Shown here: piece after piece, positions 1 to 6,255 of the stretch
Position numbering within the stretch: position 1 is the stretch's first letter
Layout of the letters: the number at the start of each line of letters is the position of its first letter
Source of the DNA: Candidatus Propionivibrio aalborgensis
GTDB lineage: Bacteria > Pseudomonadota > Gammaproteobacteria > Burkholderiales > Rhodocyclaceae
DNA length: 43,838 nt
Assembly (NCBI RefSeq): GCF_900089945.1
Contig: NZ_FLQY01000009.1
Span: forward strand, 1-43,838
Direction of reading: 5' to 3'
The notes under the pieces: generated by a model
The model's input: only the letters and a program-made list of their open reading frames with translations
Database searches by the model: none
Told to the model about the DNA's origin: nothing
Translations under genes and position numbers: made by a program

Positions 1-3000
1 CAGGAAAACCCTCTCGGCTTCGGTATCGGCCGTGGCTTGTATAACGAAAAAGGGAACTGGGAAGGCGTCTTTGCCATGGCGTTCCAGGATTCACACTTCA
101 AGCCTTCGTATACCGGGGGTTACCAATGGAAAGCAATCTGGCGACCAGCCGAGGACGTTCGTCTGGGATTGGGTTATCTTGCAGGTTTGATGTCGCGCTC
201 GGACATCCTGAGCTATGTGCCTTTTCCAATTGTGTTCCCAGTGGCTTCTGTGGCTTACAAGAACTTCAGTCTGGAAGGAACGTACATTCCCCCGGGTGGC
301 GACAATGCCGGCAATGTCCTCTTTATCTGGGCCAAGTGGGAAATGGGCAAGACCGGTGAAGCAATCGGTACGCCGGCGCAGCCGGCGCCGCCAACTCCGA
401 CGGAAATGGCCAATGCATCATTCGGTCCTTCCACGCCGGTTACCAGGCAGCGTGTGCCGTATGGCCCCGTCCTTGAGCCGGGCTCGACCCCACGTCTGGT
501 CTCCTCATCTGAAACCGTGCCACCAGTGGTGCGGGCCACAGGTCGCCGCGACGAGGAGGAAGTTCCCGACCCCCTGCCGTCCCTCGTTTTGCAACCCTCG
601 AGAAGCATGGTGACGCCGCCCAAAGACAGCGCGGTATCGCGACCGGTGTTCCTCAGCGCATACCGTATGGGGGGTGACATTGATCGGGAGTTCAATGCGG
701 AAGGGGAGGCCGAATTGCGCAAGATTGGCACCGTCGTCAATGCGGATCGATTGACCTACTGGCCGATTGACGATGAAATCGAGGCAGAGGGTAATGCGCG
801 ACTTGAACAGGGCGAGGATCTGATTACCGGCCCGAAGATGCGCTTGAAACTTGAGGACCAGGTCGGCTTCTTTGAGCAGCCTTCCTATACGATCAAACGT
901 CAGCCGTCGTCCGGAGGAAAAGCCAAGGCAGAAACGGAATCTACGGCACTCAGTGCTGAGCAGCAAGATGAAGATTCATGGCTTACTTCGGGTTTTGCCT
1001 CGCCGCAGGTGCTAGACATCAAGCCGGGGCAAACGAGCTTTGACTACTCTAAGCAGAGCCCTCGGAGGGCGACCGTAGCGCGGGGAGAAGCGGATCGTAT
1101 CGATTTCGAGGGCGAGAACCAGGTCCGGATGACCAATGCCACCTACACGACATGCGAACCGGGCAATGATGACTGGTATGCCAAGGCAGGCAGTCTCAAA
1201 CTCGATTATGACCGCGAGGTAGCCGAGGGTACCGACGGTACGGTGTACTTTCTAGGTACGCCGATTCTCTATTCGCCATGGCTATCTTTCTCGCTCAACA
1301 ACCAACGGAAATCGGGCTTCCTCGCGCCGACATTCGGTACGAGCAGTAACAGGGGCATCGAACTTGCGATGCCCTACTACTGGAATATTGCGCCGAACAT
1401 GGATGCAACAATTGCGCCACGCGTGATGACCAAGCGTGGCGTTCAATTGAATAACGAATTCCGATATCTCAACACGGCGTTTGGCGGCACGTATCGAGGA
1501 GAGCTTCACGCCGAGGTGCTGCCCAACGACCGGGAGCGGAACGGCGAGAATCGCTACGGTTACTCGGTGCAGCATAACCAGGCGATGGCGAATGGCTTCT
1601 CCGGCGTGATCAACTACGGCAGGGTATCGGATGACGATTACTTCACCGATCTGTCCAGTCAGATTTCCCATACTTCGCAAGTCAATATCCTGCAGCAAGG
1701 CGTATTGAGCTATGGCGGGGGCGGATGGTGGAATGCAACAGCCAATTTCCAGCAGTATCAGACCTTGCAGCCCGATCCCGAGAATCCGACTCTGTACCCT
1801 TACCAGTTGTTGCCGCAGTTTACAGTCACTGCCAGAAGACCTGATCTGTATATGACCGATACCAGTTTCTTTGGGCAGTACACAAACTTTACAATCAAAG
1901 AGCGCATACAGAATGTCGATGGCGTGCCCACGCTTTACCCTGATGGTCAGCGGACCGTGCTTTATCCACAGGTTGCGCTACCTTACGTGACGCCGGGTTG
2001 GTATGTGACTCCGAAGATCGGGGTGAACGTCCGGCACTATGAGCTTTCCGGCCAGGCCGCTGGCACGCCGGGATCAATCAATACCACGCTGCCGATTTTC
2101 AGCATCGACTCGGGGATGACCTTCGAGCGGCCAAGCAACTGGTTCGGACGCGATTACACACAGACACTCGAGCCACGCCTCTTCTACGTGAATATCCCAT
2201 ACAAGAACCAGGAGCAGATACCGATATTCGATTCAGGTCTGGCGGATTTCAACTTCGCGCAGATTTTTTCCGAGAACCAGTTCTCCGGATGGGACCGTAT
2301 CAATAATGCCAATCAGCTAACGGCGGCGATGACGACTCGATTGATTGAGCCATCATCCGGAAACGAGATCATGCGTGCGATGTTTGGGCAGCGTTTCTAT
2401 TTCACCCGGAACAAGGTGGAACTCAACGCGAGTACAAGTACCCCGACAGAAGATCAGTCGTGGCAAAAATCCGATGTCCTCGCAGCATTCAGCGGTCAAA
2501 TTCTGCCCAAGGTATATGCGGATGCAGCTTGGCAATACAATCTGAATGATCGCCAGGTAAATCGCTTTTCGATGGGGGGGCACTATCGTCCGGAACCGGG
2601 CAAGGTTTTCAATGCGGCCTATCGTTACAACCGCGATCCGAATGCGCCGATCGATCAGGTCGATTTTTCCGGACAGTGGCCCCTTACGGGACGCTGGACT
2701 GCTGTTGGCCGATTCAATTTCTCGTTCAAGGATGATGCAACCAACACTTCGACAGCCACACAGAATGGACGATTGATCGAATCCATAGCCGGGCTGGAGT
2801 ACAACGGCGGTTGCTGGGTTGTGCGTGGCGTTGCGCAGCAAATCGCCCTTACCCAGGACAAGACCTCTACAGGGTTTTTCATCCAGCTTGAGCTGAATGA
2901 TTTTTCGCGAATTGGTTCCAATCCGCTGAATCTTCTCAAACGCAATATTCAGGGCTACAGCCTGATCAATCAGCCGGCAGCCGACCCTGTCTTTGGTGAA

Positions 3001-3003
3001 TAG
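1..3003 (+). CDS. lptD: PagP-LptD fusion: lipid A palmitoyltransferase barrel joined to LPS-assembly protein LptD (5' partial)
   Basis: The frame is open from base 1 to the stop at 3003, giving 1000 visible residues; the true start lies upstream. Residues 1-119 match the C-terminal three quarters of PagP: EKGNW, AMAFxDS (the Asp-Ser pair of the active site, codons 88-93), a WRP motif, PFPIVFPVASVAYKN, and a closing strand with GNVLFIWAKW. The catalytic His of PagP would lie upstream of the window. Residues 120-216 are a Pro/Thr-rich linker without a signal peptide. Residues 217-1000 are a full-size LptD: a periplasmic OstA jellyroll (about 222-300) and then a large barrel. LptD inserts LPS into the outer leaflet with LptE; PagP palmitoylates lipid A there. 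Only two cysteines remain in the LptD part (Cys385 in TTCEPG and Cys938 in GGCWVV), corresponding to the E. coli Cys173-Cys725 pair. surA, which encodes the LptD chaperone, follows after 12 bp. LptD assignment is near certain; PagP assignment is strong. Confidence 0.93.
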   Translation, partial: QENPLGFGIGRGLYNEKGNWEGVFAMAFQDSHFKPSYTGGYQWKAIWRPAEDVRLGLGYLAGLMSRSDILSYVPFPIVFPVASVAYKNFSLEGTYIPPGGDNAGNVLFIWAKWEMGKTGEAIGTPAQPAPPTPTEMANASFGPSTPVTRQRVPYGPVLEPGSTPRLVSSSETVPPVVRATGRRDEEEVPDPLPSLVLQPSRSMVTPPKDSAVSRPVFLSAYRMGGDIDREFNAEGEAELRKIGTVVNADRLTYWPIDDEIEAEGNARLEQGEDLITGPKMRLKLEDQVGFFEQPSYTIKRQPSSGGKAKAETESTALSAEQQDEDSWLTSGFASPQVLDIKPGQTSFDYSKQSPRRATVARGEADRIDFEGENQVRMTNATYTTCEPGNDDWYAKAGSLKLDYDREVAEGTDGTVYFLGTPILYSPWLSFSLNNQRKSGFLAPTFGTSSNRGIELAMPYYWNIAPNMDATIAPRVMTKRGVQLNNEFRYLNTAFGGTYRGELHAEVLPNDRERNGENRYGYSVQHNQAMANGFSGVINYGRVSDDDYFTDLSSQISHTSQVNILQQGVLSYGGGGWWNATANFQQYQTLQPDPENPTLYPYQLLPQFTVTARRPDLYMTDTSFFGQYTNFTIKERIQNVDGVPTLYPDGQRTVLYPQVALPYVTPGWYVTPKIGVNVRHYELSGQAAGTPGSINTTLPIFSIDSGMTFERPSNWFGRDYTQTLEPRLFYVNIPYKNQEQIPIFDSGLADFNFAQIFSENQFSGWDRINNANQLTAAMTTRLIEPSSGNEIMRAMFGQRFYFTRNKVELNASTSTPTEDQSWQKSDVLAAFSGQILPKVYADAAWQYNLNDRQVNRFSMGGHYRPEPGKVFNAAYRYNRDPNAPIDQVDFSGQWPLTGRWTAVGRFNFSFKDDATNTSTATQNGRLIESIAGLEYNGGCWVVRGVAQQIALTQDKTSTGFFIQLELNDFSRIGSNPLNLLKRNIQGYSLINQPAADPVFGE

Positions 3004-3015
3004 GAGGCGCGACAC

Positions 3016-4326
3016 ATGACGCAATTGCTTCGTACCCTGGTACTGTATTTCTGTTTCGTCGGACTGGCTGCGTCACAATCGCCCAGCCGCCAAGTCAGGG
3101 AACCACTACCGGCTGATCGAATCGTTGCCGTTGTCAATGACGAGGTAATTACGCTCCATGAATTGCGTACGCGCCTCGATCTTGCGCTTAACCAGCTTAA
3201 GAAGCAGGGCACCCCATTGCCAGCTCGCGATGTTCTAGAGCGTCAGATGCTCGAGCGGTTAGTGATGGACAAGGTTCAATTGCAATTCGCACGCGAGACA
3301 GGTTTGCGCGTTGATGATGCACAGCTTGAGCAGGCGCTGCAGCGTATTGCCGCCGGCAACAAGATGTCACTTTCCCAGTTTCGCGAGGCACTGCAAAAAG
3401 ATGGCATCCCGTTCGCGAGATTTCGTGAGGATATTCGTGAAGAGATGACCATATCGCGTGTCCGTGAGCGAGAAGTCGAGAACAAGATCACAATCTCGGA
3501 AGGCGAGATTGACAACTACCTTAGTGCCAATTCCGCCAAAGGTGGTGCTGGCGAAGAGTATGAAGTTGCCCATATCCTCCTGCGCGTGCCCGAGTCGGCG
3601 AGTCCGGAGCAGATTCAGAAGCTCAAGGCCAAGGCTGATGAGGTGATGGGGCGACTGAAGAAGGGCGAAGATTTTGCACAGCTTGCCGCAGCTTATTCTG
3701 ACGCACCTGACGGCTTGCAAGGCGGCAATCTGGGCATGCGCCCCCTGGATCGCTTGCCAGGGAGTTTCGGAGAGTTGGTGATCAAGCTTCAAGTCGGTGA
3801 GGTCGCGCCGATTCTGCGAAGTCCAAACGGATTCCATATCGTCAAACTGGTTTCAAAACGAGGTGGTTCGGACATGCCAGCAGTGCAGCAGACCCATGCG
3901 CGACATATTCTGATCAAGGTAAACGAAGTGGTTTCGGAATCCGATGCCAGGCACACGCTGGCCGGTTTGTCCGAACGAATCAAGAATGGCGCCAGTTTTG
4001 CGGAGCTGGCCAGACTGTATTCGCAGGATGGGTCGGCATCCAAGGGTGGAGACCTGGGCTGGATCTACCCCGGCGATACCGTGCCGGAATTTGAGCGGGC
4101 AATGAACAAGCTCAAGCCCGGCGAGGTTAGCCAGGCAGTTCATTCGCCATTCGGATTTCACCTGATCGAAGTGCTTGAGCGACGCGTGCAGGACGTTTCG
4201 GCCGAGCGCCAACGGGTGATTGCGCGGCAGGTGCTGCGCGAGCGCAAGATGGATGAAGCGTATCAGGATTGGTTGCGTCAGGCGCGCGATCGCGCCTACG
4301 TGGAAATACGCATCGAGGAGCGCTGA
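3016..4326 (+). CDS. surA: Periplasmic chaperone / peptidyl-prolyl isomerase SurA
   Basis: SurA escorts unfolded outer-membrane proteins, LptD among them, across the periplasm to the BAM complex. The 436-residue protein has a signal peptide (about residues 1-20), the SurA N-terminal chaperone domain beginning with DRIVAVVNDEVIT (34-46), and two parvulin domains at about 182-280 (EVAHILLRVPE ... GFHIVKLV) and 292-390 (THARHILIKV ... GFHLIEVLE), then a short C-terminal helix. Length and domain order match the family. The start is supported by an AGGAGG-like site (TAGGAGGCGCGACAC before ATG) just after the lptD stop. It is cotranscribed with the upstream fusion and with pdxA, whose start is 3 bp after its stop. 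Confidence 0.97.
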   Translation: MTQLLRTLVLYFCFVGLAASQSPSRQVREPLPADRIVAVVNDEVITLHELRTRLDLALNQLKKQGTPLPARDVLERQMLERLVMDKVQLQFARETGLRVDDAQLEQALQRIAAGNKMSLSQFREALQKDGIPFARFREDIREEMTISRVREREVENKITISEGEIDNYLSANSAKGGAGEEYEVAHILLRVPESASPEQIQKLKAKADEVMGRLKKGEDFAQLAAAYSDAPDGLQGGNLGMRPLDRLPGSFGELVIKLQVGEVAPILRSPNGFHIVKLVSKRGGSDMPAVQQTHARHILIKVNEVVSESDARHTLAGLSERIKNGASFAELARLYSQDGSASKGGDLGWIYPGDTVPEFERAMNKLKPGEVSQAVHSPFGFHLIEVLERRVQDVSAERQRVIARQVLRERKMDEAYQDWLRQARDRAYVEIRIEER

Positions 4327-4329
4327 GCC

Positions 4330-5316
4330 ATGCTGGCCCGGCCCCTCGTCGCCGTCACTTCAGGAGAACCCGCAGGAGTCGGGCCTGAAATCTGTCTGCG
4401 ATTGATGGACGGTGTTACGGGTGCGCTTAATGCGGACTTGGTCGTTCTAGGTGATCGTCATTTGATGGCCGCGCGTGCCGAAGCCATCAGTTTTACAGGC
4501 GAATTGCGCGAATGGTCTCCAGGTTTGATGCCATTGCCCGGACACCTTGATATCCTTCATGTGCCACTGTCTGTCCCTTCGCGTCCTGGACAACTTGATC
4601 CGGAAAATTCGTCTTATGTGCTTCAGTTGCTCCAGCGGGCGATCGAAGGCTGCAGAACGGGTGAGTTTTCCGCGATGGTTACGGCCCCTGTGCACAAAGG
4701 CGTGATCAACGACGCGGGCATTCCGTTCACCGGACACACCGAGTATCTGGCAGAGCAGACGCAAACTCCGCGCGTTGTGATGATGCTCACGGGCGGTGGT
4801 CTGAAAGTCGCATTGGCGACGACTCACCTGCCTTTGAAGGAGGTGCCATCGGCGTTGACGCAGAATTCCATTGAGCAGACGCTGCGTATCCTGCACGCTG
4901 ATTTGGTCAGAAAATACGCCATCGAAGATCCGCGAATTCTGGTTGCCGGGCTCAATCCCCACGCCGGTGAAGGTGGGTACCTCGGGCGCGAGGAAATCGA
5001 GATCATTGCCCCGGTGCTGGACCGCTTGCGTGCCGAAGGCATGCGGCTGATTGGCCCCTTGCCTGCCGATACGATGTTCACGCCGCCGATGCTGGCCCTG
5101 GGCGATTGTGTATTGGCCATGTACCATGATCAGGGGTTGACGGCGCTCAAGTATGCGAGTTTTGGAGCCGGCATCAATGTGACGCTTGGCCTGCCAATCA
5201 TCCGTACCTCGGTCGATCACGGTACTGCCCTCGAACTGGCCGGAAGCGGTCGGGCCGATCCGGGAAGTCTCTTCGTTGCTGTTGAGCAAGCTATTGAGAT
5301 GGCGCAACGGCAGTGA
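4330..5316 (+). CDS. pdxA: 4-hydroxythreonine-4-phosphate dehydrogenase PdxA
   Basis: PdxA oxidises 4-phosphooxy-L-threonine with NAD in de novo pyridoxal 5'-phosphate synthesis; it is a cytoplasmic, metal-dependent dimer. The 328-residue product has the family signatures: TSGEPAGVGPEI near the N terminus, the metal-ligand motif GHTEYLAEQT in the middle, a second metal site around GLNPHAGEGG, and MYHDQGLTALKY with GTALELAGSGRADPGS near the C terminus. Length is normal. It follows surA with a 3-bp gap, so it is translationally coupled, in the classic lptD-surA-pdxA-rsmA arrangement. Confidence 0.97.
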   Translation: MLARPLVAVTSGEPAGVGPEICLRLMDGVTGALNADLVVLGDRHLMAARAEAISFTGELREWSPGLMPLPGHLDILHVPLSVPSRPGQLDPENSSYVLQLLQRAIEGCRTGEFSAMVTAPVHKGVINDAGIPFTGHTEYLAEQTQTPRVVMMLTGGGLKVALATTHLPLKEVPSALTQNSIEQTLRILHADLVRKYAIEDPRILVAGLNPHAGEGGYLGREEIEIIAPVLDRLRAEGMRLIGPLPADTMFTPPMLALGDCVLAMYHDQGLTALKYASFGAGINVTLGLPIIRTSVDHGTALELAGSGRADPGSLFVAVEQAIEMAQRQ

Positions 5317-5475: not shown

Positions 5476-6255
5476 ATGAACCAGCATGTTCCACGCAAAC
5501 GTTTTGGGCAGAATTTCCTGATTGACCGACAGGTGATAGCCGCTATTGTCGATGCAGTCGCACTGGAGCGTGACGATTGTGTCGTTGAGATAGGTCCTGG
5601 ACTTGGAGCGTTGACTGACCCATTGCTGAAACTTCTGGATCATCTGCAAGTCGTCGAGATTGACCGCGATATCATCGCCCGATTGAAGACGCGTTATCCG
5701 CCAGGAAAACTGACCCTCCACGAGGGCGATGCCCTGGCTTTCGATTTTGCTTCGCTGTGCAAAGGATCATCCGCAGGTCTGCGCATTGTCGGCAATCTGC
5801 CCTACAACATCTCGACGCCATTGCTGTTCCATCTGGCCGGCTTTGCCGATCAGGTCGTCGACATGCACTTCATGCTCCAGAAGGAGGTTGTCGACCGTAT
5901 GGTCGCCGAGCCCGGCACTCCCGACTATGGGCGTTTGACGGTAATGCTTCAGTATCGTTTTGTGATGGACTGGCTACTTGATGTGCCGCCGGAATCCTTC
6001 GACCCGGCGCCGAAGGTCGACTCGGCCTTGGTGCGTCTGATTCCCCGTCTGCCGGCTGACTTGTCGGCGAAAGACGAGTCAAGGTTCGCAGCGATAGTGT
6101 CTGCCGCTTTCGCTCAGCGGCGCAAGATGCTGCGCAATAATTTCAAGGGCATATTTGATGACACGGATTACGGGCGGCTCGGAATTTCCTCGACCGCCCG
6201 AGCGGAGGAACTGTCGGTTGAGGATTACATCCGCATAGCCAACAGCATGCGATGA
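5476..6255 (+). CDS. rsmA: 16S rRNA dimethyladenosine transferase RsmA (KsgA)
   Basis: RsmA dimethylates the two adjacent adenines (A1518, A1519) of the 3' end of 16S rRNA using S-adenosylmethionine, a late step in 30S maturation. The 259-residue protein shows the family motifs: KRFGQNFLID at the N terminus, VVEIGPGLGALT (SAM motif I), the acidic VEIDRD loop, and the catalytic NLPYNIS motif (IV), with the small C-terminal domain following. Length is typical. It ends the lptD-surA-pdxA-rsmA block; apaG and apaH, found next in E. coli, are absent here. Confidence 0.97.
   Translation: MNQHVPRKRFGQNFLIDRQVIAAIVDAVALERDDCVVEIGPGLGALTDPLLKLLDHLQVVEIDRDIIARLKTRYPPGKLTLHEGDALAFDFASLCKGSSAGLRIVGNLPYNISTPLLFHLAGFADQVVDMHFMLQKEVVDRMVAEPGTPDYGRLTVMLQYRFVMDWLLDVPPESFDPAPKVDSALVRLIPRLPADLSAKDESRFAAIVSAAFAQRRKMLRNNFKGIFDDTDYGRLGISSTARAEELSVEDYIRIANSMR

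Follow-up and report, generated by a model that had tools for sequence, protein, structure and literature searches.

A PagP-LptD fusion in Rhodocyclaceae: a putative lipopolysaccharide translocon with a tethered lipid A acyltransferase

PagP, a lipid A palmitoyltransferase (Pfam family PF07017), and LptD, a lipopolysaccharide-assembly protein (PF04453), are both known, and solved structures are available for PagP (1THQ, 3GP6, 1MM4) as well as for LptD (7OMM, 4Q35, 8H1R and others). PagP is an eight-stranded barrel with an amphipathic N-terminal helix and a His-Asp-Ser site, and both of its termini lie in the periplasm, while LptD combines a jellyroll with a large barrel and is encoded ahead of surA, pdxA and rsmA. 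Outer-membrane proteins with more than one barrel in a single chain are likewise known as a kind, and have reportedly been surveyed by Solan et al. (2021), a study cited in PMC11494523. Here we report that PagP and LptD share one reading frame at positions 1-3003 of a 43,838-nucleotide stretch of Candidatus Propionivibrio aalborgensis DNA (assembly GCF_900089945.1; contig NZ_FLQY01000009.1, or C9, from base 1), and the whole stretch is hereafter called the window. The combination is apparently new, as no description of a PagP-LptD fusion turned up among the literature matches listed. This agrees with an earlier reading of the window made from its letters alone, which knew of no described enzyme of this design; the survey of Solan et al. 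might list one. In the available excerpts of PMC11494523 and PMC8592465, PagP and LptD are named as separate proteins only, and the multi-barrel protein GfcD pairs barrels of 12 and 13 strands, unlike the fusion described here.

The fused domain resembles PagP in its fold, N-terminal helix, His-Asp-Ser site and many conserved positions, but it is not a separate gene and sits between a long linker and LptD; moreover, the window's species has Gln where E. coli PagP has Gly88. The remainder of the protein has the jellyroll, the large barrel and the gene order of LptD. It differs from LptD in carrying a second barrel enzyme and long linkers at its N-terminus, and it missed the NCBIfam LptD equivalog cut-offs (window best 357.7 of 683 bits). 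Like the multi-barrel outer-membrane proteins, it holds more than one barrel in one chain, here by sequence and model.

Positions 1-3003 of the plus strand form a single open frame of 1000 codons whose 5' end is open at the contig end. PF07017 matched window residues 2-112 (E 2e-37, profile positions 36-144 of 144, 128.3 bits against a Pfam cut-off of 24). In the same frame, LptD_N matched residues 243-287 (E 5.1e-05, 23.9 bits, cut-off 20.4) and PF04453 matched residues 516-899 (E 1.1e-99, 334.9 bits, cut-off 22.4). Profile search for the two families, which the earlier reading had proposed as a check, thus placed both above cut-off in one frame and confirmed the in-frame fusion. LptD_N fell below its cut-off in three of the four relatives scanned. 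The NCBIfam PagP equivalog model (cut-off 155) was passed by the relative G019 (195.5 bits) and missed by the window part, which is cut short (132.6 bits). The parts of the fusion gene are as follows.

1..3003, plus strand: PagP-LptD fusion gene, truncated at its 5' side where the contig stops; counterpart on contig C365
4..336, plus strand: PagP domain, profile positions 36-144, belonging to an eight-stranded barrel; the helix, first strand and catalytic His are on C365
70..96, plus strand: PagP active-site stretch FAMAFQDSH, residues 24-32; its Asp and Ser are aligned to E. coli Asp76 and Ser77
337..645, plus strand: Pro/Thr-rich linker, without an internal signal peptide; disordered in the model of relative G019
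727..861, plus strand: N-terminal periplasmic jellyroll of LptD (LptD_N match)
1546..2697, plus strand: LptD barrel (PF04453 match)

The missing 5' part is carried by another contig of the same genome, C365, which overlaps the window start by 379 bases (371 identical, 8 differences). All of the PagP residues compared (112/112) are identical, and the two contigs look like strain variants of one locus. Extension upstream had been suggested as a way to find the start, the signal peptide and the catalytic His, and all three are present on C365. This contig holds an ATG start, a hydrophobic signal peptide whose mean hydropathy over 11 residues reaches 2.5, a region rich in Pro and Ala, and the rest of PagP, which now matches PF07017 from profile position 2 with 171.6 bits (cut-off 24). 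Beyond the ATG lies a divergent gene of the APH phosphotransferase family. The two contigs are unjoined, and the length of the whole protein, about 1207 residues, comes by arithmetic from the numbering of both. No hydrophobic internal signal peptide was found within window residues 101-270, where the best mean hydropathy is 0.92, in keeping with the earlier statement that the LptD part has no signal peptide of its own. For the window protein, we accordingly rejected the possibility that LptD is translated on its own, beginning at an internal start and carrying a signal peptide.

The same architecture is present in 13 relatives, as the sequence-only reading had suggested examining. PagP and LptD therefore stand in one frame in 14 Rhodocyclaceae genomes, four of which are isolates: our own genome, 9 of the 27 other Propionivibrio genomes (P. 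dicarboxylicus DSM 5885 and metagenome-assembled genomes (MAGs) called Propionivibrio), all three Rhodocyclus genomes examined (g83; R. tenuis 2761, R. gracilis DSM 110 and R. purpureus DSM 168) and the only g50 genome examined, a groundwater betaproteobacterium MAG. No stop or frameshift lies between PagP and LptD in the window gene or in any of the relatives' stretches read (13/13), among which G008 has its LptD cut by a contig end and G005 is cut at its 5' side. An assembly chimaera or a frameshift artefact might be suspected, since the assembly consists of 405 contigs with about 5% contamination, the window starts at a contig end, and the relative G013 has a frame break upstream of PagP. 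We consider its probability negligible: the PagP-LptD frame is shared by 13 other genomes, four isolates included, and the two contigs of the own genome agree in protein over their overlap. A binning artefact or frameshift at the PagP-LptD junction itself was rejected on the same two grounds. An in-frame Met with a hydrophobic signal peptide was found upstream of PagP in 12 of the 14 (the own genome on C365 and 11 relatives, R. gracilis by eye). Simple repeats before PagP, of the GSGS/QAQA and QAT kinds, were also seen (L070, upstream of PagP; L097, 5' end).

The residues corresponding to E. coli H33, D76, S77 and R114 are kept in 14/14 fused PagPs in an alignment that was also made to 1MM4, which supports the earlier view that the active site is intact; we take the His, Asp and Ser to have their catalytic roles in PagP. 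Over the same 11 pairs, the ratio of nonsynonymous to synonymous substitution rates (dN/dS) was 0.03-0.28 for the PagP part, 0.07-0.29 for LptD and 0.11-0.55 for the linker, with the PagP domain taken as 111-112 codons from the window's first residue and silent sites near saturation in many pairs. Both the PagP and the LptD parts are under purifying selection of about equal strength, and in 10 pairs out of 11 the linker value exceeded that of PagP. We rejected the idea that neighbouring genes are read through by chance, in view of the conservation of, and purifying selection on, both parts.

The structure model of the C365 PagP gave an N-terminal helix and a barrel, with a predicted local distance difference test score (pLDDT) of 84.3, and matched the solved PagP 3gp6 with template-modelling (TM) scores of 0.77/0.85. 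The assignment of the N-terminal part to PagP is hence a strong match by fold as well as by sequence. The fusion of G019, modelled from PagP to the end, showed the PagP barrel, the linker, the jellyroll and the LptD barrel in order (pLDDT 71.5, predicted TM score 0.53), and matched solved LptD and solved PagP (TM 0.82 to 7omm by target length). Sequence domains and model together indicate two barrels in one chain, joined by a linker that is probably disordered. Both ends of PagP are periplasmic, as such a fusion demands; the topology, which had been judged sound, is supported by the domain matches and the structure model.

Three genes, surA, pdxA and rsmA, lie 3' of the window gene, and the fusion therefore occupies the usual place of lptD.

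3016..4326, plus strand: surA, 3' neighbour of lptD; best SurA model 327 of 394 bits, under the equivalog cut-off
4330..5316, plus strand: pdxA, 3' of surA
5476..6255, plus strand: rsmA (ksgA), 3' of pdxA

Among the 13 fetched fused loci, surA is found 3' of the fusion in 12; also in 12, a divergent gene for an APH-family kinase flanks it at the opposite end. The miss in each case is due to a stretch or contig end. Profile searches found no second PagP in any fused genome, the two matches in the own genome (G000) being two contigs of one locus. A single LptD match was found in G000; the nine other fused Propionivibrio genomes likewise gave one each, except G008 with two partial matches at two contig ends. 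G109, G158 and G076 gave one match each, and G192 lay outside that search.

As for the wider distribution, PagP was found in 16 of the 59 genomes of the near-genome set (own included), fused in 10 of them (own and 9 Propionivibrio). In the family sample of 395 genomes, 52 had a PagP match and 13 of these were fused (own, 8 Propionivibrio, 3 g83 and 1 g50), the remaining ones being taken as unfused by locus where fetched and otherwise by frame length (at most 404). PagP also occurred in 58/399 order genomes and 15/369 class genomes (own in both; the order set includes some of the family). Outside Rhodocyclaceae no fusion was found, as judged by frame length in this sample: the own genome aside, no order or class PagP frame exceeded 539 residues, a length that could not accommodate both domains; in five genomes of the Burkholderiales family f20 the partners of PagP were read. 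No LptD match was present in the fetched unfused PagP loci. Likewise, no PagP was found near lptD in 20 family genomes read, a set chosen mainly for the length of its LptD frames (up to 1448). What these 20 LptDs have in addition at the N-terminus is rich in Pro and Ala or, judged by eye, open frame that precedes the probable start. In the five f20 genomes (L207-L211), PagP is followed in the same frame by an apparent second small barrel; of the two proteins scanned, L211 exceeded the OMP_b-brl cut-off and L209 narrowly missed it. The f20 protein thus also has an N-terminal PagP in a two-barrel chain, but its partner resembles OMP_b-brl barrels and not LptD.

The fusion appears to have arisen by insertion into an existing part of LptD. 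At the N-terminus of Propionivibrio LptDs, fused or unfused, lies a long stretch rich in Pro and Ala that contains a short motif (LRVDPALLG in its typical form), and both were also seen in 19 of 20 other family LptDs read, most picked for long frames; many other family LptDs, with shorter frames, lie outside this survey. The motif occurs one to three times per Rhodocyclaceae LptD stretch (e.g. L062-L089, L187-L206), and its pattern matched 44 of 48 proteins, at 1.52 per protein versus 0.0015 in shuffled stretches. The pattern did not match the window protein, which is cut at its 5' end, L068, where the stretch is truncated, L067, where by eye Trp takes the first position, or L198. Where a fused protein did match the pattern (11 cases), PagP stands after the last motif copy and before the jellyroll, and was therefore, as far as these sequences indicate, inserted in a Pro/Ala-rich stretch of the kind seen in unfused relatives.

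The linker from the PagP match to the LptD start spans about 60-155 residues, or 51-145 when counted from ten residues after the PagP match. Being long, faster-changing than its neighbours in most pairs and probably disordered, it might be cut after insertion to give separate PagP and LptD. This is very improbable in our estimation, since a linker stretch resembling ATGxRDEEEVPDxLPxLALR is conserved in several Propionivibrio and in R. tenuis. The unfused LptD of G006 (L087), a genome that lacks PagP, keeps a stretch with RQRxPYG and ATGxRDEE; this stretch comes after PagP in fused relatives and is found in 1 of 34 unfused proteins. Its linker aligned to fused linkers with a score of 167, against 68 +/- 8 (highest 90) in 100 shuffles, and is a possible trace of PagP loss. 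Several other unfused LptDs also scored above their shuffles (up to 158), which means that much of the linker predates the fusion or is shared.

In a quick tree of LptD (78 rows, 73 different), all 14 fused rows fell in one 33-row clade with a Shimodaira-Hasegawa-like approximate likelihood ratio test value (SH-aLRT) of 99, together with 19 unfused rows (14 Propionivibrio, 3 g43, two of these from one genome, and 2 g56). Five changes between the fused and unfused states are needed on this tree, three of them forced by starred branches. One gain and four losses fit it, more gains being compatible too, and the probable history is a single insertion of PagP followed by several losses. The PagP tree has 68 rows and omits same-genome repeat loci, partial PagP matches, matches weaker than 1e-25 and hits without a fetched locus; in it the fused rows formed two groups, Rhodocyclus (3) and the other 11. 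A single fused clade appeared in 32% of bootstrap trees and was not rejected (approximately unbiased test, p 0.37). The window PagP is nearest to that of G014 (91% identity) and the window LptD to that of G007 (80%). The PagP module may therefore have been exchanged between species; uneven rates could give the same pattern. The sampled g43 and g56 LptDs lie in the 33-row clade without PagP, and the unfused PagPs of some g43/g56 genomes (L014, L018, L019 and L028) fall outside the fused groups, as if separately acquired.

Taken together, the fusion is probably a two-barrel lipopolysaccharide (LPS) translocon with a tethered lipid A acyltransferase; its catalytic activity, the proximity of PagP to the lateral gate and its preference for new LPS are what we infer from the architecture. 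The chain would run from the signal peptide through the Pro/Ala-rich periplasmic stretch, the PagP barrel, the flexible linker and the LptD jellyroll to the LptD barrel. By its retained active-site residues, the PagP part is predicted to be a phospholipid:lipid A palmitoyltransferase. Fusion would fix the copy number of PagP to that of the LPS translocon, and the linker would keep PagP within reach of the LptD site that releases LPS into the outer leaflet. There, PagP would take an acyl chain from a phospholipid that has strayed into the outer leaflet and add it to LPS that has just been inserted. A coupling of LPS delivery to acylation by the fusion, as had been proposed, can reasonably be inferred. 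As regards the donor, C16 fatty acids are dominant in Rhodocyclus, with 33-36% C16:0, according to PMC8954225, and palmitate donors should therefore exist there.

Diffusion in the outer membrane is low, and PMC7617971 calls it unclear how PagP can come upon enough LPS; in E. coli, LPS and outer-membrane proteins are reported as immobile (PMC11912417). A tether would bring new LPS to the enzyme and so solve the access of PagP to immobile LPS. The fusion might instead merely fix the copy number and share export and assembly, with PagP acting on any LPS it meets. Standalone PagP relatives in many genera of the family and order would suit such a tether without channelling, as would the highly variable length of the Pro/Ala-rich insertion stretch and the variable linker after PagP. 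We nevertheless hold it to be unlikely, as the fused PagP is the sole PagP found in fused members of three genera, and with LPS as immobile as reported for E. coli (PMC11912417), the LPS encountered by a PagP bound to LptD would mostly be that inserted close by. Another account would make removal of outer-leaflet phospholipids at the point of LPS insertion the main job of the enzyme, and the acylated LPS a by-product. According to PMC7617971, phospholipids are the acyl donors of PagP, and its activity is regulated by its access to them. To this guarding of asymmetry we assign a low probability, well below that of a tether without channelling; nothing separates it from the tethered-acyltransferase explanation, and both could be true.

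Several observations weigh against an LptD-tethered, LPS-acylating PagP. The LptDs of 14 other Propionivibrio genomes, each covered to beyond its 5' end, lack PagP, and none was found elsewhere in these genomes, some of which are incomplete; the PagP tether is therefore dispensable. The contig of P. dicarboxylicus ends upstream of PagP in a simple repeat, and in G013 the frame is broken upstream of PagP: the start codon and signal peptide are out of frame with PagP and lie beyond a simple repeat. Repeats of this kind, changing in length in front of PagP-LptD, may reflect either assembly problems or true variation. The G019 linker is mostly below pLDDT 50, the relative placement of PagP and LptD in the model is untrustworthy, and PagP could, on such a linker, lie a good distance from the gate. 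In one pair out of 11, the dN/dS of the linker falls below that of PagP, and selection therefore does not always separate domain from linker.

The last such point concerns the acyl pocket. E. coli Gly88 is, as we presume, the floor of this pocket (the hydrocarbon ruler) and the basis of palmitate selectivity. The aligned residue is Gln in the window's species (window 1-336, L001) and in no other of the 68 PagP rows, and chain choice or activity may therefore differ in this species. At this position the 14 fused rows have Gly (9), Ser (2), Gln (1), Ala (1) and Thr (1), and the 54 standalone rows have Gly (29), Ala (23), Ser (1) and Val (1). More tentatively, then, LPS might be acylated on leaving the translocon, in a step tied to insertion, with a pocket retuned in some species and a chain perhaps shorter than palmitate; the Gln, Ser, Thr or Ala at the Gly88 position is the basis for suggesting a retuned pocket in those species.

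If this more tentative reading holds, acylation would go with LPS insertion and would not serve as an inducible repair of a membrane already completed. A PagP chained to LptD is one natural answer to the question of how PagP gains access to LPS. Since fused and unfused species occur in one genus and fused isolates are held in collections, this question would be testable in environmental bacteria.

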